Assembly (NCBI GenBank): GCA_002189035.1 | Contig: NEEC01000002.1 | Coordinates: forward strand, 2,604,001 to 2,668,000 | Origin: Utricularia gibba | Lineage: Eukaryota; Streptophyta; Magnoliopsida; Lamiales; Lentibulariaceae | Direction of reading: 5' to 3' | Length of the DNA stretch: 64,000 bases | Part shown: positions 2 through 63,834 of the stretch, in pieces | Layout of the letters: every line of letters starts with the position of its first letter | Numbering within the stretch: position 1 is the first letter of the stretch | Notes under the pieces: generated by a model | The model's input: the letters and a program-made list of their open reading frames with translations, nothing else | What the model was told of the DNA's origin: nothing | Databases searched by the model: none | Position numbers and translations under genes: made by a program

Positions 2-3000
2 TGCGGGCTTGAGAAGGCGCTGCAGAATATTCAGCCCGTTGAAGTTGTGGACCCTTCCTCTGAAGTCAAGTTAAGAAATATCCTTTCAATTTGCTGTTCT
101 TTTGGAATTGCAATATCCAATGGATTGGTGAAGTTTGCACTCTCTTCGGGACTCGTTGTTTGATGTTTGTGAAGCGCGAAAAGTTCTCTAGTAACTCGGT
201 CATATGTTCTGTTCTGTTTTATTTTGGATTGTGATGGGAGGTTTCCATCATAAAAATGCGAACTTTGTGTTCGCCGTATGGTCGCCTTCCATATTTCTTA
301 AGTCTTATTGCTGAACAGTTTATCCTCTGAAACTATATGCAGTTGGGTTTGGGTGATCACGATCTAGTTTCTCATGCAGTATCCGTTATTTCAAGTTTTC
401 GGCTTTTGGCTTGATTTGGAATAGATACTTACATGAAAAGTGCCAGAAAGTCTCTGAAAAGTATGATTATGGTATTTGTTGCATCTTATATGTTATGGTG
501 TCGAGTAATTTCCATTTTTCATATCATCTGCGATGTTCGTCTTCTTAACCCATGCCAAACTTTGGCTTGGAAGTCCTGAAGTGTATACTCCGCAAAAGGA
601 ACGGGTTGCTGGAGGAATGTATAATGCTCTTTATCCTTTTGAGGTAGAATTTTTTGCCATCAGCATCATTATTGTCATAATTGGACATCATAAGTTGGGA
701 ATTTTGGAGATAACTACATTTTTTGTTTCTTCTTATTTTGGTATGAGCAGTGTAGACAAGCAAAAACCACATATGCTGGAAAGTTCATGTTGGAAGTTAA
801 TTTCCAGTATAACGATGGAGTCTCTATAAGAGAAAAAATGAATTTCGGCCAGTTTCCTATCATGTTGAATGTAAGGAACCATGTTGAATCTTTATAAACA
901 TTCATTATTAAGCTCTTTCCGTAAACTTACTAGTTGAATCAAGTAAATCTTCACTTCCTAAATATCAACGATGAACACGATCGCTTTTACATTTGGCTCT
1001 ATGATCCGTCGTCATGCTACTACTGGAATGCTAATTTTGCATATCATTTGCTTGATGGATGTAATATGGAGCTATGATTCTCGTACCATTCTAGACCATT
1101 GTTTTTCTTGCATAGTTACATATCCTAGTCCTTCTATGCAGTCCAAACTTTGCCATCTTAGGGATGTACATAATCCTATGGAATTAGTTGCAAAGAAAGA
1201 AGAGGCTTCTGAAGCAGGAGGGTGAGTTTGCATGGTCCTCTCTTTTCTTTCTATTCATCCTTGATTAGTTATTTTTTGGAAATTGTTTTCATCTACACGG
1301 CTATATTTTATCCTTTTTTCAGATACTTCATATTGAATGGGCTGGAGAGGGTTATTCGACTTCTTATTTTGCAGAAGAGGAACTATGTATGTCTACTATT
1401 TTTCGCTCTAGGCCTTGTAAACATGTAGCATCATGTGGAAGGAATGCATTTTATGAGACCTGTTGTTTTGTTATTTTTTTTAACCTGTATCTTTTCCTTT
1501 ATCTAGCCAATGAGCATTGTGAGAAGTTCATTCGCTGAGCGCAGTGAAGGATATACTGACAAAGCAGTTGTCATAAGGTTTTCCTCCTCTCCACATTACA
1601 AATCCATTTTCAGTAACTTCTAAGAATGTTAACACCGAGAATATGGTCTAGGAGACATGGTGCTAAGTTATATTGGAAACAACGCATGATATAAATCCTG
1701 TTTTATCACCAGTTTATCACAACATTGTTCCCTGGGATTGAGTGAAAATTGTCACAAAAAGTTTCCAAAATTCAAAGAGGGAACAGTGTCGTAGTTTTTT
1801 TTTTTTTTATCATTAACCTAGATTTCTGGAATATTGTTTCATTATTTTCATCTTTAAGGTCATTTATGGTGGTAAAATGTCTATACTATCTACCTGAAGG
1901 AACGTTGTAGGTGATTTAGTACATGTCTAATATAATTTTTTGTTTGGATCGTCATACTATTCCTTATAGTGCTGAGGACTTGTTTTGCTGATTGATTTGA
2001 GTTTGTTCATTTTGACCAATACTGTTTTCTGTCAGATGTGTTAGGGAAGATCTATCTTCAGTTTCCCTTAAGCTCTACTACCTTAATAATGGCAGTGCAA
2101 GGCTTGGTTTTTGGTGAGAAGATATATTCCGTACCTCTTGCTCTATCCTTGAAACTAAAAAAAAAAAAAAAAAAAAATCTTCTTCCCCAGGATGAAAGGC
2201 CGTGAATACTTGCTTCCTGTGGGGATACTACTAAAGGTGCATCACATCAACTCGGCTTAGTCATAATCAAAATAAACTTATTCACTGGTGCTGATATGCG
2301 GTAGAAATTTAAATGTTTCTTAATCTACCTCTAGAAACTTAGTGCTGCATTGGTAATTCTCTAATTTTGAAGACCCTTTTATTGACATAAAATACATGGC
2401 ATAGGCTAGGTCCCACTTTGAAAATTACAAGTGATCACCAGGGAGGTGTACTCATTTGACAGTTTGTCCATTCTCTTATTTGCTAGCCACTTCACGCTCC
2501 TGGTAATTGGTGTGTGTCATAAAATACAGCATGTTGTTTGTCTGAGTTCATAGCGATCAAAATATGTTCAATTAAAGTACCAGTGATCTGCCTCTGCTCA
2601 GTTCTCCTGGAGCTCATATTTTTAATAGCCATTCACATGTAGCTAAAACCATTTAGGCGCTTTCACCAATCTGGAAAATCTTTTAAATGCTCTATTCATC
2701 TGAGTTTGAATCTCACCCCTTTCTACCTCTGTAGGCTTTCACGGATGCTTCTGATCGTGACATTTATAGGAGTTTGACATGCTGCTATAATGAAAAGGGT
2801 GATCAAGTGAGAGGTGCTGTTGGCACAGAACTTGTTGGTGAACGGGCACAAATTATTTTAGATGAAGTTCATAACATGTCTCTACATACACGTGCCAAGT
2901 GTTTAAAATACATTGGTAAGTTTATTCTGACTAATTTATGTATATACATTATGCATGTTAAGTGGGTCTTTTGATTTTCAGGTGAGCATTTCCGTCCTCT

Positions 3001-6000
3001 CATGACTGGTATGGATAAAGACAGCGCCACAGTTGTAAGTTGACCCATTTACGTGAAGTATGATATATGTTTTATTTTTACCATTGCGGTATGTCCATTT
3101 GCAAATTTCATAGAATGTTGTGACCTTCTTTTAAGGAAATGAAAGACTTGAGCTACTATTGCAATTATTTGTGCTTGGATGGAACCATGCATAACCATGT
3201 TCTTCCTGTTTTTCGTGACCTTTGTGCAATCTGCAGGTTGCTGATACTGTTCTACGAAACTTTGTGTTCGTCCACCTGGATAACCATAAGGACAAGTTCA
3301 ATCTATTGATGTGAGACCTCAGTTCTTTGTTCACTAATTAAAATAATTCTGCTGCAGATTACCCAATGTTATGCTCTTTGCAATTCAGCTGTTGGTGACT
3401 GACTAAAATTTTATTTAGCTTCATGTTGCAGAAGCTCTTTTCTCTTGTCGATCAAACTTCGACGGCTGATAATTCAGATTCCTTACAAAACCAAGAAGTT
3501 CTATTGCCTGGACATCTGATAACTATTTATCTGAAGGTAGGTATTAGTACATCATTCACATCTGCAGATCCTCAAGAATGACAATGTTCATGTGTATTCA
3601 CATCAGCATATTGTGACAAGTTGTTTGCTGTTGCACAACTTATTTAACGAGGCTTATTCGTTTCGTTAAGAAAAACATGTGTGTAGAGTGCTCATTACAC
3701 AAGGTATTTTGTGCTAAAAGCTTCAAATAACTATGGTTGCAGGAAAAATTGCAAACCTGGTTGCAGCGGGTGAAATATGCTCTTCGAGATGAACTCGAGA
3801 AGAAGAGCAAGAAGTTTGATCTGAGTAACTGTAATGCCTTCTAATTCCTCTCAAGTTGCAGAATGTATTCATTCTACTATGCTAATTTTTCCCGTGGAAA
3901 ATTCTTTCACTTAAACTATGCATGTGGTGAATTTAATTACAGTGAAATGCAGGTTCTGTGACATAGATTTTTCATAAATTTTGTATTCTCATCTGGTTTA
4001 TCTAGTTTAATTCTTGTTCCCGTATACTTTTTCTGATTTTGAAATATAGTTTTAATGCAATGGTCATGTTGCCATTCGAACTAATCTGCTGAAGCCTACT
4101 GATTTGTGGTGTTGAGTTTTATGCGTACTACTTAATTTTTGAAAAATTATAACCATAACATTAACTTGGTAGAATCATATTGACTTTATATGATACTTTG
4201 ATGCTGTCAGAATCATTGAAGTTTGAGGATTATTTATTGCTGTGTTGATTATTTCTTTTTGCCTACCTATGCTTGAAGTGGCTGATGTCAAGAAGGTTCT
4301 TGAGAGAACTTTTCCAAAGAAAGTTGGTTTGGCTATTGAAAATATGCTGAAGACAGGTACAGTTGTTACACAGTCAGGGCTAGATTTGCCACAGGTATAA
4401 TAACTCAGCTCATAGGCTTTCTCTGTTTCTTTTTGACAGCAATTTAAGCATGTGCAGTCATAGGGACTTTATATGCTGCTTACTCTGTTTTCTGCTAATG
4501 TTTCTTAGAAAGCTGGAATGACAGTTCATGCAGAAAGACTCAATTTTCTGCGTTTTATATCACACTTTCGTGCAGTCCATCGGGGTGCATCATTTGCTGG
4601 TCTTCGGACAACAAGCGTTCGAAAGTTGTTGCCTGAGTATGTTCTTTTGTCCTTTTTGAAGTGATCTGATGGCGTTTCTGCATGTATATTTCGTGCCCAT
4701 CATTTATAAAAATGCCCCTGTGATAACTGGGAAATGATTCTATGAGCAGATCCTGGGGATTCTTGTGTCCTGTTCACACACCTGACGGTGAGCCATGTGG
4801 GCTGCTCAACCATATGACTGCTTCTTGTCGTAAGAACTATTCTCATTTTAATCAGTATTATATACACCAGATCTTCATGGAGGGCATATAGATCTCAAAA
4901 GTAGGAAACAGAGGGACCAATATCTGAACTCAAATGCTAATGATCATGCCAATCTAGTCCTTCATCTATACAAGCATATATTTTTTCTGTGTGAAACGGA
5001 TTTTTTCCTATGCAGTCTATTCATGGGATCCTAGTGGCACACCTAAGAATATAGTTCAATTTCATTCTTGTAACTTTAGCATTGATTCGTAACTTGATGA
5101 GAACAATAATTATTTCGCAGGCATAACATCTTACTATGATTCTGAAGGGAAAATAAAAGACTTTCTTGAGATTGGAAAGTCAATATCCGAAGCTCTAGTG
5201 AGCATAGGAATGAATCCTGCTGGAATGTCTACTCAGGCAGGTCCACCGAACGAACTCTGTGTTCTTCTGGATGGTCGCATTCTAGGTTTCATTGCATCTT
5301 GTGATGTTGAGAAATGTGTGTCTCACCTACGACGGTTAAAGGTTCTGGCTAATTCAGTGGTGAGTTTTCTTCTGTAATCTTCCTATCAATAATTTTTTGT
5401 TTGTCTTACGCCTGCTTGTTTAATATGGCAGATTCCAGATGATCTTGAAGTTGGCTATGTTCCTCTTAGTATTGGAGGAGCGTACCCTGGTCTGTATCTG
5501 TTCTCATCCACATCCAGATTTGTTAGACCAGTAAGAAATATGACGATTTCTCTCGAAGAGGGCAACAACATTGAGCTCATTGGGCCCTTTGAGCAGGTGA
5601 TATGATGTTATAACTCCGTTTCTTATTAATTTTCTTTGTTAAGCATGAAGATTGTGAGCTCTCTTTTTTTTTTCTCCTTTACGTGCCATAATGTAATGAG
5701 CTGCAGGTCTACATGGAAATAAGTTGCCCTGATGGCGGAGATGGTGGAAGGAGCAATGCGCGTCCCGCAACTCATGAGGAAATTCATCCAACTGGGATTT
5801 TGAGTGTTGTTGCCAATCTTACACCTTGGTCTGACCATAATCAAAGTCCTCGCAATATGTATCAGTGTCAGGTGCATATTTATTTTTCATTGCATTATTA
5901 TCAGAGCATGTATGTTTTTATTGTCCACGATGGAAGATTTGGAGTTTGACGTGATCAGATGTTATGCTGTAGATGGGAAAACAAACAATGGGCTTTTCGT

Positions 6001-8762
6001 GCCAAGCTTTGAATTTTCGGGCTGATCAAAAACTCTATCATCTTCAGGTTCGCCCTATTGTTCTTCCTATTTAAAAAAGATGAAACATCTGTCAATAATT
6101 AAATCAACAGAGAGCATAACATCCTAGCGACACTTAGTTGAATGATTGGTCCCTGGTACAGAGTCAGTGGAGAACCATGCATTCAGGAAATAAATGTGTT
6201 TAGAATAAATCTTCCGCTGGCCCTTCAGAAAGTGTTGATTTCCATGTGCTCTAGTATGAAAGAAATGTCAATAGTATTTTGTGGTGATTAACGTTGATTG
6301 TCACATCACTTCATCCCTGCTGGTTTTCACTTTGAATTCAGTGCTCTTTAATCTTATGATACACACAATTTTATATGCGGGCATAGTATTTTTTCTTAAC
6401 TCTTGTCCCCTGAGTTTTTCCGCAGACACCACAGACACCAATTGTCCGTACAGATACATACAAAAAAAGTCATATTGACGAATATCCACTTGGAACAAAT
6501 GCCATCGTTGCTGTTCTGGCCTATACTGGGTAATGATTAAGACCGTAGCTTTCTGTTTAATTATCTGCCTGTTAATGTCATATACTCTTTTGGTGTTGTA
6601 GGTATGATATGGAGGATGCCATGATACTGAATAAATCATCAGTTGAACGTGGCATGTTTCGAGGGTATATATACCAGGTCTGTTCAGTATTTGTGTTTTC
6701 GTCTGACGAATTAGATATCAAAATAGCTATTCTTCCTCGAGTCATAAATTCTTCTAAGAAAATAGTTTGTCTTCTCTTGATGAGTGAATGTGAAATTTCA
6801 ATAAATGAAGTGTTAGTGGAAAATAATGAAGAGCACTTTGGTCGGAATGATCATAGGGAACTCGATTTTCAAATGCAATTTGTATGTTAACAAGACAGAT
6901 TTAATGTGGTGGTGGCTCTTCTATTCTTGTTTTGAACTTCAGATTTGACAAAGGATTTATCTTTTTTTTCAAATTAATTTCAAGCAATGCTTTCAGGCAC
7001 AATATGTGAATTGAAATCTTAAAAGAACAAGCCCAGACAATTAGTTTGTTATTATGGAGGTCTCATATACACATTGATACGTCTGGTGCTGCAGTCTGAA
7101 ACAATTGAATTGGCCGACAATAAATCCAAGTCAGGCGGTGGTCAGAAATCATTTCGCAAAAGCTATACGGACAAGTCAAGTCATAATTTCATTGATGCAG
7201 ATGGGCTTCCGTACGTTGGACAGGTATATGAGATTGTATATATTCATAGGAATTCTATCCATTGTGTGAAATAACACAGCTGTAGGCTTTTTGATTTTTC
7301 TTCTTCAGCGCATAAGCCCTGGCGATCCTACTACAGCGTGTATGATGGTACTACAAGCAATGTCTCGGTGAAAAAGTTGAGGGGTTCTGATGCAGTCTAT
7401 GTGGACTGTGTTTCCGTTGATGTTAAAAACCATAAGCACCTGAAAAAGGTTAGTGCCGTTATACTTGGGATTCAGTGATATGTGCATTTTTTTGTAATAA
7501 TTTATGTTTGTACACATGTTTTATGTTTCTGTGATTTTGCATGTTTAAATCCTAGTTTATGTAGCTTATGAGTCCAGCTTGGCTGGCCCTCTTTTCTTCG
7601 TGCAGGCAAACATCCGTTTTCGACGCCCAAGAAATCCAGTGATTGGTGACAAATTTAGCAGCAGACATGGTCAAAAGGGTGTTTGCTCTCAACTATGGCC
7701 AGAAGCTGATATGCCATTCTCAGCAGTTACTGGAATGTCTCCAGATCTCATCATTAACCCGCATGCGTTTCCTTCTAGGATGACAATTGCTATGCTTCTA
7801 GAATCAATTGCCGCCAAGGTATGCTTATCAGAATGTGTGTTTTCCCAGGTTGATGGTGTTACTGTCATTTTTGCAATCTGAAAATCATGCATCCGACTAT
7901 TTTCCAACTCTTTCCTTATCCAATGATGCTACGTATGATTCCAGGGAGGTGCACTGCATGGAAAGTTCGTTGATGCAACACCTTTCTCAAGCTCCGTAAA
8001 GAAAACTGCCGAGTCCGAATCCAACTCCAGTACACTTGTTGATGATCTTGGTTCTATGTTGATCTCCCATGGGTTCAATTACCATGGTGTGGAAGTCTTG
8101 TACAGTGGAGTTTATGGCACAGAGCTCAAGTGCGAAATATTCATGGGCCCTGTGTACTACCAACGTCTTCGTCACATGGTCTCAGACAAATTTCAGGTGC
8201 AGTCCCCTTCAATTATGCTTCAGCTCCCAAGGAGACTAGTGTTGCTGTGACTCGAAAACCAGTGCTTTTTTTTTCATTAGAGACCATGCAGTTCAGTGAC
8301 ACACCCTCCGACGGACACTTATGCCGTGGCTCAATGTTTACAGGTCCGATCCACCGGAACCGTCGACATGGTGACCCGACAGCCTATCAAAGGACGAAAG
8401 CGAGGGGTGGCATTCGGTTTGGAGAAATGGAACGGGACTCCCTTCTTGCCCATGGAGCCGCGTATCTGCTGCACGACAGACTGCACATGAGCTCGGATCA
8501 CCATGTGGCCGACATTTGCACCCTCTGTGGAAGCATCTTGACGACGACCATCATCCAGTCTCCCAAGAAGAAAGTGCAGGACACCATCTACCCAAATCGC
8601 CCTCGCGGCAAGGGACAGAAGAATGTCACCTGCGTCTCCTGCAAGACCAGCAAAGGGATGGAGAAGGTGGCGATGCCGTACGTGTTCAGGTACTTGGCTG
8701 CGGAACTGGCCGCCATGAACATAAAGATGACTCTCCAACCAAGCAACGATCTTAGAGATTGA
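2..8762 (+). CDS. NRPA2: DNA-directed RNA polymerase I subunit 2 (5'-partial)
   Basis: Second-largest subunit of nucleolar RNA polymerase I, which transcribes 45S rRNA. It forms half of the catalytic cleft. Exons I can join in frame: 2-77, 561-643, 751-870, 1142-1221, 1323-1386, 1507-1577, 2036-2113, 2191-2236, 2735-2915, 2982-3034, 3237-3310, 3419-3536, 3743-3830, 4279-4394, 4509-4636, 4750-4829, 5121-5359, 5432-5596, 5707-5871, 5973-6047, 6426-6529, 6602-6677, 7095-7223, 7309-7448, 7606-7818, 7945-8196, 8344-8762. That is about 1144 residues; only the first 30-40 should lie upstream of the window. Landmarks: [31 protein letters not shown], the Mg-site region [24 protein letters not shown], and a C-terminal zinc motif (CTLCG then CVSCK). 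The Pol I type is supported by [12 protein letters not shown] and the C-terminal end. The frame breaks at 7327-7328 (CC) and 8404-8407 (GGGG); each needs one extra base and both look like homopolymer errors. Confidence 0.95.
78..560 (+). other. U12-type AT-AC intron in NRPA2
   Basis: The intron starts ATATCCTTT at 78, the exact minor-spliceosome donor consensus. TTCTTAAC at 542-549 matches the U12 branch site, 11-13 bases before the terminal AC at 559-560. Joining 77 to 561 gives KLRIWLGSPEV, which continues the Pol I subunit without a break. No GT-AG alternative gives this peptide. The other introns of the gene that I resolved are GT-AG. Confidence 0.88.
2157..2177 (+). repeat. poly-A run in an NRPA2 intron
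   Basis: Twenty-one consecutive A within the intron between exons 2036-2113 and 2191-2236, just upstream of the pyrimidine tract and acceptor. Its length is notable because much shorter runs elsewhere in the window appear to have lost a base. Confidence 0.9.
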
Positions 8763-9274: not shown

Positions 9275-9321
9275 TCTTACAAGTCCGACGCTCCCCTCTA
9301 CCCCGCGCGCACACCGAAAAA

Positions 9322-10426
9322 ATGGTGCTCCGCTCAGAATTCTTCTCCGTTCTGCTCGCTGTGGCAGTGACCTTCGCCACGGCGGCGACGGCCTGCTCGC
9401 CGTCTGACAGGGCGGCGCTTCTCTCTTTCCGGGCAGCTCTTAACGAGCCATACCTCGGGATATTCGACACGTGGAAGGGGGAAGAATGCTGCGTTAACTG
9501 GTATGGCGTCACCTGCGACCCGGAGACTAAACGGGTCGCCGACGTCGTTCTCCGGGAGAATCTGAAGACCCAATTTTCGAAAGAGCCGGTCGCTCCGGTT
9601 ACATGAGCGGCTCCATCTCGCCGTCTATCTGCGTCCTCGACCGCCTTGCCACCTTCGTCGTAGCCGACTGGAAAGCCATCTCCGGCGAGATCCCGCCTTG
9701 CATCACCAGCCTCCCTCGTCTCAGAATCCTCGACCTCATCGGAAACACGATCTCCGGCCGCATCCCAGCCGACATCGGCCGTCTAAACCGCCTCACAGTC
9801 CTCAACCTCGCGGACAACCAAATCTCCGGCGAGATTCCCCCTTCGATCGTCAACTTAAACAGCCTAATGCACATGGAACTCAGAAACAATCGCCTTTCCG
9901 GCGAAATTCCCTCCGACATCGGAAAGCTTTCAATGGTCAGTCGCGTACTCCTGAGCGGGAATCAACTCACCGGCACAATCCACCCTCCTTTGCAAACATC
10001 TACCGCCTCGCCGACCTCGATTTGTCCCTGAATCAACTCACCGGCTCAATCCCATCTCAACTGGGATCAATGCCAGTTTTATCGACACTCAACCTCGACA
10101 GTAACCTTCTTTCCGGCGAGATCCCCACCACCCTGCTCGCAAATTCAGGGCTGAACATCTTGAACTTGAGCAGAAACTCACTTGAAGGCCACTTACCCGA
10201 CGTATTCACCCAGAAGACATACTTCACGGTAATCGATCTATCGAATAACAAGCTCCAGGGGGCGATTCCGAGATCACTGGCAGCAGCCCGGTATATCGGA
10301 CACTTGGACCTGAGCCATAACCATCTTTGCGGGCCGCTACCCAACTCGCCGCCGTTTGATCGGCTGGGGTCGTCATCCTTCGCCAGCAACGACTGCTTGT
10401 GTGGGGATCCACTGAAGACGTGTTAA
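9322..10426 (+). CDS. DRT100: DRT100-like leucine-rich repeat protein
   Basis: Predicted secreted extracellular LRR protein of about 368 residues with no kinase or transmembrane region, encoded in one exon. In order: signal peptide (about 1-24, hydrophobic, ending near TAATA), LRRNT_2 cap with paired cysteines (ACSPSDRAALLSF, then CCVNWYGVTC), about ten LRRs of the plant LxxNxLxGxIP type, and a C-terminal cysteine cap (NDCLCGDPLKTC). Length and layout fit the Arabidopsis DRT100 family. DRT100 was named for DNA-damage tolerance, but its biochemical role is unclear and related proteins may act at the cell wall. The frame breaks twice, at GGG 9554-9556 and CC 9980-9981. One added base at each gives 369 codons including the stop with continuous repeats, so the gene is probably intact. 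A TATA box sits just upstream. Confidence 0.88.
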
Positions 10427-42197: not shown

Positions 42198-45100
42198 TTC
42201 CTCCTCGAAGATGAAGTCGAGGTGAGTTTTCGGGATTTGAGGGATTTTTTTGTAACCCTAATAGTTCTTTTATTTGGGCAAACTGTTTTGGGAATAGAGA
42301 TTTCATAAGGATGTCTATAGGTTGTTTCTTAGACGATAAGTATTCTAGGGTGATGCTTCCCTCCTGGATGTAGTCTCTTAGGACGTGATATTTGATCTTA
42401 ATGTACTTAGTCTTCTCAAACATAACACAATTTTGAGCAATACTTATGATTGATTTGTTGTCAATCCTCAAGATACGCGGTCTTGGCAACTTGATTTTTA
42501 GATCCTTACATAATTTGAGTAGCCATTGTGTGTAATTTGCAGCTGATGCTCCTGTAATGTACTCTCCTTCGACCGATGATTGAGCAACAAGTTCTTATTT
42601 CCTACTATTTTAGGAAAAGGCTGCGGACCCTAGGGTGAATAGAGAGTCATTGTGGGTTTTAGATCAGTCTTGTCTCCTTCAAAATCAGAGTCTAACAAAA
42701 TCTGGGAGGACAGGGTTAGTATGCTTCTTGAAATAAAGTTCTAAAGTTTTAGTAGAATTTAAGTATTTGAAGATTTGTTCAACAATTTTAAGATGCAAGT
42801 GTGATAGATTGTGCATTAAACGTGATAGAAATGTTACTACAAAAGTGATGTCAGGTCTGGTAGCTATGAGGTAGAGAAGTGCTCCCACGATTTTTTGATA
42901 TTCTGATATATTGACTGCCTTGGCGGATGTCAATCCCGTATGTGATTTCTCTATGCGTTCCCTCTTTGTGGCCAGGTTTACCTTTAACTTAAAATAAGGA
43001 GTGAAAAGCATAGCAACATCCCTAGCTTCAGTCATCTCAAGTACGCTTAATAAATCCTTTGTGTATTTCTTTTGTCTAAAAAAAAATGTAATTCTTATCT
43101 TGGATAATTTCAAACCCCAAGAAGTATTATGCAGGCCCCAAATCAAAGAGGTTGAATTTATCTCGCAACTCGCTTTTTTCTACATCTATCATTTCTTCAT
43201 CGATGCTTGTAAAAAAAATATCATCAACGTACAAGGTAATTATAATTCTTCCCTTTTTTTAGACAAGAGTGTAGATGGTGGTGTCACTTTGAATTTACCT
43301 GTATCCCATCTACATTAGAAACCCATCTATTATAGCATGCCATTTTTTCGACACTTTTTTTAGGTCATATAATGCATTTTTTCAATTTTAGGACCTTTTA
43401 TTCTCCATTTTCAAGAATGAAGCTAGACGGCGGATGTACATAGATTTCCTCAATTAGATGTCCATTTAGAAACGTACCTTTCACATCCAAGTGATGAAGC
43501 ATCCATCCTTGGCTAGCAGCATAAGTGATTACAAGCTTTATAGTGTCTAGCCTAGCTACTGGAGCAAGTGCCTCCCAATAATTTATTTCTTTCTTTTGAA
43601 AATATCCTTTGGCAACTAACTGAGATTTCAGCTTGTTTATAGATCCATCCAGGTTGAGTTTGGTCCGTAAAATCCATTTAAAACCAATTGGCTTGACTCC
43701 TTGAGGTTTGTCCATTAGTACTCATAGTTGATGATTTTTTATGAAAGATAATTCACTTTCCATGGATGCTTTCTATGCAGGGTCACGTAGTAATTCATAG
43801 GGAGTTAAGAACTCACATTTAATTAAGGCCATATCATATATTCTACCAATAGAGTCATACCCTTTGACTAGTTTTTTATCTTGTAGGTGATCAAGATTAT
43901 GGCATTGGAAGTGTGGAATGTAGATGTCTTCATTTGAGTCACTTTCAACATTGTCTTCCAGATTCTCAATATTTGGTAATATTTCAGATTCATGATGGTA
44001 AGATTATGAGAATGGACATCTTGACTTGTGTTTGCGGAATTAAATAACTCCATGTTTTTTTTGTCATAAGTGAGGTCATCTCTAGAGGTCCCTGAATTTT
44101 GTTGCTCAACTTGAGAGTTTTCTTCATCTTGAGTAGCCTATTCTACTACATTATCATGATGAAATAGTTGAAAAATTTCCATGTTATAATCAGCATTGTG
44201 CTCTAAAGAGTTTAAGTGCATTTTCCAATCAAGTGTTTGAGATTCATTTACCACTATGTCTATGCTCCTTTAGTATTCGGATCTTGTGGCTGTTCGGAAT
44301 ATAAAATATGTAGACATAAGTAAAGTCAGCACACATAAAGATCCCAAACTAAGAACAATTTTCAAGTTTGTTTCTCTTTTCTTTAGGAATGAAAACATAA
44401 CATAGAGATCTGAATATCTTCAAATTGAGCAGGTTAGGAGCCTTTCCATGCCATATTTCTTAGGGTGTTTTACTATATGGAATTTCTTTTGTAGGTAGTC
44501 CATTAGAAGGAAAACAGCAATATGGACAGCTTCACTCTAAATGTAGAGGCAGATTGTGGTCTAGCATAAGACATCGAGCCATATTCATGATGGTGCGGTT
44601 ATTTCTTTCACAAGTGCCGTTCTGTTGAGGTATATAAGGAACTATAAATCAATGTGTAATACCATTTTATGAGTAGAGTTTTTTGTGCTCCATAGACTTA
44701 CATTCACCCTCATTATCCGAAAGTAGTATAATGATCTTTCAGTTTCTGCTAGAGTCTTGAAGATCTTAAAATAATTTGCAGCCTCTGATTTGTGCTTGAG
44801 GAAGTAGACCCAAGTGTATTTGGAGAAATCATCGATGAATATGATATAATATTTGTTTCCTCCGAGCATTGTCACGTTCATGGGTCCGTTGAGATCACTT
44901 GTTACTAATTGCAATTTGGCTTCTGAAGTTTCAATTCTTCGTTTAAATACATTCCGACTCATCTTCCCTAGCAGACATGTGCTGTAGGGCTGATCACAGT
45001 GTTTTAACTCAAGTACGCCACACATATAGCTCCTTTGGATTGAGCAGACTTTAATGCTACATTATGGTGATGGCTGAGGTGCTTGTACCATATCATAGAA

Positions 45101-46622
45101 GTATCAGTGGCTGATAGGGTGAGAAGCTCTAGTGAGTGACTTGAGTTGATAGGAAACAAACGGTTGATCATGAGGACTTTCAACAACATAGTATGATTCT
45201 GATCAATTAGAGAACATGTATGATCTTCAAGGCATATTTTGATATCTTCTTCAATGCTTAGTAAATTATGTGAGGCTTGTGGGACATAAAATACAGCTAT
45301 TAGTTTGATCAATTGTTGATTTGTCTCAATGCACACTGGTCCAATACCATCAATAGGTATTGTGGTTCCATTGGTGACTGTCAGTGTCTTCCTTGTAGTT
45401 GTTGTAAGAGAGGTGAAAATTGACCTATCATTAGTCAGGTGTGATTGTTGTAAGTGCAGTCAAGTAGCCAAGTAAGTTTGTGTCTGTGATCCTTAATTTT
45501 TGAGACTATGGTCATACTGCACAGTGAGTAGATAGAAACCTTAGCAATCTTATTGATATCATCAACAAATACATCATTGGGTTTAGCGAAGACATTCTCA
45601 ATAGATACAGTGTGCGAGTTTTTAGGTGCTTGATTTCTTTTGTTGGGACATACCTTCTCTACATGTCCTTTTGCAGTACACAGGGTGCATTGGGCCTCCG
45701 GGTTCCAGTAACAGTAGATAAGGAGATGATTCTTTGTGCACAATATGAATAGGGTGGGTAGGAGCTTTTCTTTTCCTTCTTGGCTGGATGAAAGGTTGGT
45801 GCCGTGTAAGATTGGCATCCTACATTTTTATTCATAGAACTTGAGCTGAACATGGCTTTAAAGGATGCTCTTGAGCACTTTCTTCACTTCGTGTTTTATG
45901 GCAATTTTCTGCATTTTTGAGGTAATATAGTAGTTGCTGCAAAGATAGAGTCTCCAGAAACCTAGTGGCATCTAGGGATTCAATAACAACATCAAACTCC
46001 GTAGATGCACCGTGAATAACTTGGGCTTTCAAATTTTGTTCTTCCCTTTCATCCACTACTTCACCCATCCTTTTCAGTTTTTCAAGGTTTTTGAGAAGTA
46101 TTTCAGTGTTGGACGACACCTCTCCTTCACTTATTTTGAAGTTGTATACTTTATTCTAAAGTATCTGGATCTCTCTTTTCCAAACTTCCTTTTTTCTTCA
46201 TAAGTGTCTTGTAGTGTCTTCCATGCTTCACATGGTGATTTTCAAGTGATGCATCTATAGGCATCACCAATAACAACATAGGAAAGTGCTGCTGAGGTTT
46301 GAATCTCTTTCACATGGTATTCTCGTTCAACTAATCATTTTTCTTAAAGGATGCCCTCAAAGCAGAGACATGTGGCTATGAGATTCCATAGCCCATGTAA
46401 TTGTAGGTAAATTTTCATCTTTGGTGCCCAAATGTCATATTCTTTGCCATCAAATATGAGCGAGGTTATATTTGTAACAAATACATTTGAGGCCATTGTG
46501 TCACCCTACACAGTCAAAGAGGCAGACACAAAGAAAAAACAAGTGTTAGAGAGTGAGCGTTGAACCAAGATTTAGAGAGATTGATCTGCGTCGTTTTGTT
46601 TTCCTTCACGTCAGGTTCACCA

Positions 46623-60964: not shown

Positions 60965-63834
60965 TCAGGAAGGAGTGATGTTCAAAGATGTCTTGATTTG
61001 GTTCACTGTGCTACTGATCAGGTTGTTCACAGTTGCTACTGATTCGTGGCTCATTCTGGCAGATGGGAGGCTGCTCACAAGGATTTGAAAAACAATGGTG
61101 ACCAGGGAGCCTGAAGGGGGCTAGTGTTGGTGCTTGTAGATGCACCGTCTGCGGCCGTGCCGGCATCGTTACCCGGCCGGCAGTCGGAATAGATAGTGAA
61201 CCCGGACGGGAGTAAGGGAATATAGGAAGGGTCCTCGCCGCTCATGGCGATGTGGATCGCCTGCAAGTCGACCGGGCAGTAGACTACTAGCGAACCTGAT
61301 GAATCAGTGCAGCTTTCTTGCAGGATCAGCATGTTGTTTTGGCTAGTGTTGTATCCCTGTTTCAGAGTTATCATTGAGTATAGAGAAATGCAAGCTTTTT
61401 GAATGAACTAAACAGCTTACTCTAAGGACTGAGATGCAGTTCCCTGGATGAGATCCATTGAGAATGTGAGCAATTTCTTCAACAGGGTTCTGGTTAGAGA
61501 GAACATCCCACTGCAAAACAAGCACATATTACGAACTCTAACACTAAATCCGCAAGCATGCAACAAAGTCTTGAGATAGCTCTAGCGACTCACCTGAGGC
61601 CGGCATCTCTCGTCCCGCAAGAAATTGAAGACATTCAATGGCGAAACCGGAAGCCAGATTGTCGCCGAGGCGCTGATTATCACTCCATTGCGCTGTCCAG
61701 GCTCCGTGCTCCGGTGCACTGTTGTCCGGACTTCAAAATCATGTGTGGCCGAGAGGGTGTTCAATTGCTGGCCATTGGGAGGGTTGATGCTTGAGCAGAA
61801 GTAGTTCACCATCCTCTGTGCTAACTTCATCATGCTTCTCTTTCCTTCTGGTTACGCAAAAAGGACATGCCTCACTCAGTCGAATCAAGTACTTTTTTTT
61901 TTCGAAATGCGATGGGTTGCATTATGCTATTCTTACCTCCTCCAAGCTCCCGAGCTGAACTCCCACTGATCATCAAGGAAAATCTTTCACACACTCTTTG
62001 AAGAGATGCTAGCCATCTTTGTGCTCCAAAAGCAAATCCACTCTGAATAATGTCTCTACAGAGCTGATGAATCGGAGCTTTATCTTCAATTTCCCAGTGC
62101 TCCACCCATGTAACCTGATAATAACAAAACGCTAGCAAAATATAACTGCTGCACAATAAAGAAGGAAAACAGCAAGTGCTGCGCAATGTCGGGAACCTTG
62201 GAGTAGCCATTTTGTGCATCTTGGATCAGACATCCAGAAGGGAGTCTGTGAGCTTTGCAAGGTGAAGAGAAATGGGATTCTTGCTGGGAAACATCGTAAG
62301 AAACATCCACAATAGCCCACGAACCCGGTTCGATTTGCTGACAGAAACGGAGAAAGTAGAGTTGCCTAGTGGGAACCAATGCAGAAAGCAGTTGCAGTTC
62401 TTCATACATCTGTGAACAAAATAGGAATCAACTTTTATTCAAATGGAGAATCAAAGAGGTAGAATTAATTTTGTCGCTTTGTTACCAACAGCAGTGTCCC
62501 ACTCTGTCCAGATGATATCACTTCAACAGTCCTGGCTCTGGACACGATTGTAGGAAAAAGATCGACAAATTTGTTCTGTCAACAGAAATACAACATAAGA
62601 AGACATGGAAGAAGTAACAGCAGCATCATTTTAAGATTTGTAAGAGGGGAAACTAACCGCGTCCATGAACATATCTACAAGTGCTAAACTGTTGATGATA
62701 ACAACCCCAGAATCTCTAGAAGCTTCAATGCGCGCATTAGGATTCTTTGGCCTCGAAAACAATCCATAATAAGCTTCAAGACTGAGTATTTCCCGGCTGT
62801 CTGAACTGGGCTTTACCCAAATCGGTTCATTACTATGCAACAACCTAATAAGCTCATCCAGAGCACCGGCGGCGTATTCAGCCATTATGGATTTGTCCAT
62901 ATCGGTGAAGCTCATCGGAGGGAAGGGTAAGTCTGTAATCCCGCTTGATGAACTTCCTGGGAGAAGATCTAGGTCGAGAGATGGACCAGGGATGCCGTGG
63001 CCCACGAAGCTACCCATTGATAAATCTAGAGAAGAAACGTGAATTGGCTGCATTGGTGGGAGCTGAGCTATTGGTCTTCCCATGTACTTCGCGGCGATGC
63101 TTGAAACTCTATCGAGCTACAGAACGCGAAACCAGAAAGTTGTAAAAGAAGCTCGAAGTAAGGAAATCGAGAAGGGTGATCAGAGAACCTCTTGTTTCAA
63201 CTGGGCATTTTCAATACGGAGTTTTTGTTCGTCGAAGAAGGAATCCTCTGAAACTGGAGGCCCGCCGCAAGTTGGGCAAATTACGTTTTTGAGGGCTTCA
63301 CGAATCGCAATGTTCTCACATCTGATCTTGTCGTTTTCGGCTCGAAGTGCACAGTTATCTGCCCTTTCATGCTGCGCCTGCAAACAAAAAAAGAAACATG
63401 TCTTCGTCAGAAAAAAGGAAAATGCTTTTTTTCTTTCTCCATGAATCGGAGCTGTGCGTACTTTCATCTGGGTTCTCCGATTCTGAAACCAGAATTTGAT
63501 TTGGCGTGGATGCAAACCAAGTTCTCTGCTCAACAAATTTCTTGTCTTCTCATCCGGGTGGGGGCAATCTTTAAACATTCTAAACAAGAAATAGAAGCCA
63601 AAAAAACAAAGCACATCTTAGTTTCATCCACTTCGATGGGACCAGAAAACAGAAAACGAAAGGAGCATAGTACCATGACGATGCATGGAGAGAAACCAAA
63701 AAAAACAAAGGTTACCGTTCAAGCCTCTGAATTTGCTCCGCCGTGTGACGATGGTACCTCTTCTTCCTCCGATGAGAATCAGAACCTTCCTGGTGGTCCC
63801 CGCCGCTTGAGGCACCGCCGCCGCTGAACTCCAT
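60965..63834 (-). CDS. HDG11: HD-ZIP class IV homeodomain-START transcription factor (HDG11 type)
   Basis: Epidermal (L1) transcription factor; HDG11/HDG12 relatives control trichome branching and drought response. Ten exons on the minus strand: 63716-63834, 63462-63579, 63189-63377, 62658-63116, 62486-62575, 62197-62409, 61937-62114, 61594-61844, 61421-61510, 60965-61356; about 699 residues. The start is [20 protein letters not shown]. Homeodomain: [17 protein letters not shown] through [14 protein letters not shown]. The plant loop-zipper follows with the CPTCGG motif, then [21 protein letters not shown] spans about 200-420 ([20 protein letters not shown], then [10 protein letters not shown]). 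The C-terminal HD-SAD block includes [13 protein letters not shown] and ends [20 protein letters not shown]. The frame breaks at GGGGG 61116-61120, just before this end; one added base gives [11 protein letters not shown] and the normal terminus. The HDG11 assignment over HDG12 or ROC relatives is tentative. Confidence 0.93.

Follow-up and report, generated by a model that had tools for sequence, protein, structure and literature searches.

Intron 1 of the nuclear NRPA2 gene of the plant Utricularia gibba, at positions 78-560 (plus strand) of a 64,000-nucleotide stretch of contig NEEC01000002.1 (referred to below as the window), is very probably a genuine U12-dependent AT-AC intron, judging from its sequence. 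The intron is 483 nt long and in phase 1, and it was delimited by its splicing signals together with a join of the flanking exons that restores the reading frame. Excision by the minor spliceosome, in the ordinary way, appears to be the best reading; that the intron is spliced, how fast, and with what effect on regulation, if any, are inferences from the DNA.

Identity and structure of the host gene

An earlier note on this DNA had named the interrupted gene as an RNA polymerase I subunit gene, NRPA2, and a search of PDB with the spliced N-terminal protein bears this out. The top matches were Pol I subunits, with E-values of 5.1e-56, 4.1e-53, and 6.2e-48 (chains that we take to be from S. pombe, S. 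cerevisiae, and human, respectively), while the same protein gave much weaker E-values elsewhere (Pol III, 4.9e-10; Pol II, 8.7e-9). Since the Pol I matches were the best, we assign the gene to plant nuclear NRPA2, which encodes the second-largest subunit of RNA polymerase I. No second copy of NRPA2 was found in a search of the genome assembly.

The gene model built here comprises 27 exons on the plus strand and ends at window position 8762. The ATG lies 116 nt 5' of the window start, at contig position 2603885; an in-frame stop codon precedes it, without another ATG, and a protein search places exon 1 at 2603885-2604082 of the contig. The 3' part of coding exon 1 occupies positions 1-77 of the window and ends with ...EVKLR followed by the first base of an Ile codon. 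Exon 2 (561-643) starts with the remainder of this split Ile codon. Introns 2-26 and exons 3-26, among them the exons matching PF00562, extend over 644-8343, and the last exon, 27, occupies 8344-8762. The 25 introns of the model other than intron 1 are all of the GT-AG type, and none of them has a U12-type (GTATCC-like) donor.

Two departures from the reading frame were seen. In exon 24 (7309-7448) the frame shifts by one base near 7320-7330, and in exon 27 it changes once, by an apparent 1-nt loss near 8400-8410, in a run of G residues. Errors of the assembly are the simplest reading of both slips and their probable cause; gene decay is possible but less likely.

Splicing signals of intron 1

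The 5' splice site, ATATCCTTT at 78-86, matches the U12-type consensus RTATCCTTY at 9/9 positions, i.e., perfectly. Near the other end of the intron, the sequence CTTCTTAAC at 541-549 matches the branch site consensus TTCCTTRAY at 7/9 positions; both mismatches fall at outer positions, and the CTTAAC core (CTTRAY) is unbroken. A U12-type branch site was defined as a sequence near TTCCTTRAY located ~10-20 nt before the 3' end. With the branch nucleotide assigned to A548 (or A547), the terminal AC at 559-560, which constitutes the 3' splice site, lies 12 nt past A548 and 13 nt past A547. The exact donor reported earlier was thus recovered, the reported spacing of 11-13 bases between branch site and terminal AC proved accurate, and the assignment to the U12-type AT-AC class is supported by the donor, the branch core, and the join described below.

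Motifs alone do not make the case for a U12-type intron, because shuffled windows contained on average 1.9 perfect AT donors, 1.1 of them with a branch site and an AC in range. These shuffles rule out motif rarity as an argument, and the strength of the assignment rests on position and frame instead. The window itself holds two further combinations of donor, branch site, and AC besides 78/560, and both were rejected as introns. The candidate at 43602 falls within a copia-like retroelement encoded on the opposite strand, and the candidate at minus-strand position 62447 (~ +1554) is antisense within NRPA2 exon 6. By eye, the minus strand at ~43400-45700 appears to be a degenerate coding region of a copia-like retroelement, with a chance occurrence of ATATCCTTT.

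Reading frame and protein continuity across the join

Joining position 77 to position 561 gives an in-frame, phase 1 product that reads EVKLR-I-WLGSPEV. To see which other ends could do the same, an exhaustive join search was carried out with GT-AG, GC-AG, AT-AC, and AT-AG ends, keeping both the frame and the exon beginning with SPEV. Five frame-keeping pairs were recovered, all of them AT-AC, and a protein of homologous length resulted from 78/560 only; no GT-AG or GC-AG solution that kept the frame and the SPEV exon was found in this search. The dinucleotide AG is absent from 506 to 571. The earlier claim that the KLRIWLGSPEV join works only with AT-AC ends therefore holds, 78/560 being the single pair left at homologous length.

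When the exon ends were relaxed, GT-AG joins did appear, but every one of them either deleted conserved residues or put intron-derived ones in their place. The protein on either side of the join is conserved: the PF04563 match (E = 2.6e-29) spans residues 25-270, across the join at residues 64/65, and the archaeal Rpo2 sequence (u40284) aligns through it ("evkl-riwlgspe"). Excision of 78-560 thus restores a conserved frame where U2-type ends cannot.

Alternative explanations

Three other accounts of this region were weighed. The major spliceosome could excise an intron with GT-AG ends, yielding a protein without KLRIWLGS. Of the GT-AG joins with a donor in the real exon, 70/573 does the least damage: it keeps the frame and contains no stop codon, but it costs seven residues and removes a segment with aligned counterparts in archaeal and paralogous subunits. 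Its donor (CAA|GTTAAG) is weak, its acceptor is without a pyrimidine tract, and the presence of the perfect U12 donor would be accidental; we regard this account as extremely unlikely. U2-dependent AT-AC introns, such as those of certain sodium channel genes in animals, are known (PMC2831892). However, such introns have a G at +5 (PMC2831892), whereas positions +5 and +6 of intron 1 are CC, and the full U12 donor consensus is accompanied by a U12 branch site at the right distance. A U2-dependent AT-AC intron is hardly credible here.

The third account makes the locus a pseudogene or a misassembly, so that splicing of the intron would not yield a working Pol I subunit. The frame slips in exons 24 and 27, each an apparent loss of one base, speak for it. 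Against it, the rest of the 27 exons is conserved and intact, and Pol I is essential while the search for another NRPA2 in the assembly came back empty. The slips affect single bases, and the one in exon 27, in its G run, is typical of sequencing error. This account is therefore judged very unlikely, and a U12-dependent AT-AC intron in a functional NRPA2 gene is the reading retained below.

Minor-spliceosome components in the genome

Genes for three minor-spliceosome snRNAs, U12, U6atac, and U11, are present in the assembly, each with one match above the Rfam cut-off (86, 87, and 74 bits, respectively). Upstream of each gene lie the element CCCACATCG (at -73 in U12, -64 in U6atac, and -75 in U11) and a TATA-like box, an arrangement that we take to be the plant snRNA promoter plan. 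The Rfam model of U4atac and the zf-U11-48K domain had no match in the assembly; these are weak tests, the assembly may be incomplete, and neither result is taken as informative.

The snRNAs of this genome can be paired with the signals of intron 1. The 5' end of U11 pairs with the ATATCCTTT donor, U6atac pairs with the same donor over seven consecutive bases, and the GUAAGGA segment of U12 (GTAAGGA in the gene) pairs with the CTTCTTAAC branch region, with one G-U pair. In the proposed pathway, the donor would be recognized by U11 and then by U6atac, CTTCTTAAC would be paired by U12 snRNA with A548 bulged as the branch nucleotide, and the minor spliceosome would ligate position 77 to 561, which completes the split Ile codon of KLRIWLGSPEV.

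Comparison with known minor introns and age of the intron

The closest known counterparts of intron 1 are the U12-type AT-AC introns of plants, a class catalogued in U12DB, ERISdb, and IAOD. It shares with this class the ATATCCTTT donor, the AC terminus, phase 1, the CTTAAC branch core near the 3' end, the 5'-most position, and its standing as the one minor intron in a gene whose many other introns are major; there are no structural differences. In four plants, 13-26% of U12-type introns are AT-AC (PMC7367187). Minor introns are most often in phase 1, and a 5' bias among them is frequent in streptophytes (PMC10639083). NRPA2 intron 1 is typical of plant minor introns in every measurable respect, and is a further member of a well-known intron class rather than a new kind. 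Among the papers searched, none connected NRPA2, POLR1B, or At1g29940 with U12 introns.

Human AT-AN introns need CENATAC. In Arabidopsis, AT-AC introns are described as DROL1-dependent in work cited in PMC11039992, and by its AT-AC termini NRPA2 intron 1 falls into this class. DROL1 dependence of NRPA2 itself was not found in the literature searched.

To address the age of the intron, its position was compared with the second-subunit genes of the other polymerases in the same genome, using low-identity alignments in which distances are approximate. A phase 0 intron of the Pol II gene lies ~28 nt before the homologous position, the Pol III gene (locus L022, 1201-1620) has an acceptor ~11 nt upstream of it, and the Pol IV/V-type gene is without an intron there. 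An intron position common to the paralogues was rejected (0/3 share it), so there is no sign that the intron predates the split of Pol I, II, and III; this result does not bear on its age within plants. No encoded relatives were present in IMG/VR viral contigs or in GTDB prokaryote contigs. Minor introns show marked stasis in land plants (PMC10639083), and intron 1 is for this reason more likely to be ancestral in plants.

Predicted consequences of intron retention

If intron 1 is retained, translation continues for 28 further codons to a stop at ~162-164, giving a product of 92 residues. The retained-intron transcript is a likely target of NMD, and failure of splicing should, given this stop, remove the NRPA2 product. 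The earlier suggestion that Pol I subunit output may depend on minor-spliceosome capacity holds only insofar as the intron has to be spliced out. That the intron is limited to this lineage, and slow enough for Pol I and rRNA synthesis to track minor-spliceosome activity, seems most improbable, and regulation of rRNA synthesis through intron 1 is speculation. The finding places a well-defined minor intron in a gene that rRNA transcription cannot do without; should minor-spliceosome mutants fail at NRPA2 splicing, a reduced amount of Pol I might be one of the causes of their growth defects.

A neighbouring gene

Just downstream of NRPA2, at ~9321-10426, lies a gene for a leucine-rich-repeat protein that starts with MVLRSEFFSVLLAVAVTFATAATACSPSDRAALLSF. 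By eye, it is polygalacturonase-inhibitor-like, and it seemingly contains single-base frame slips too.
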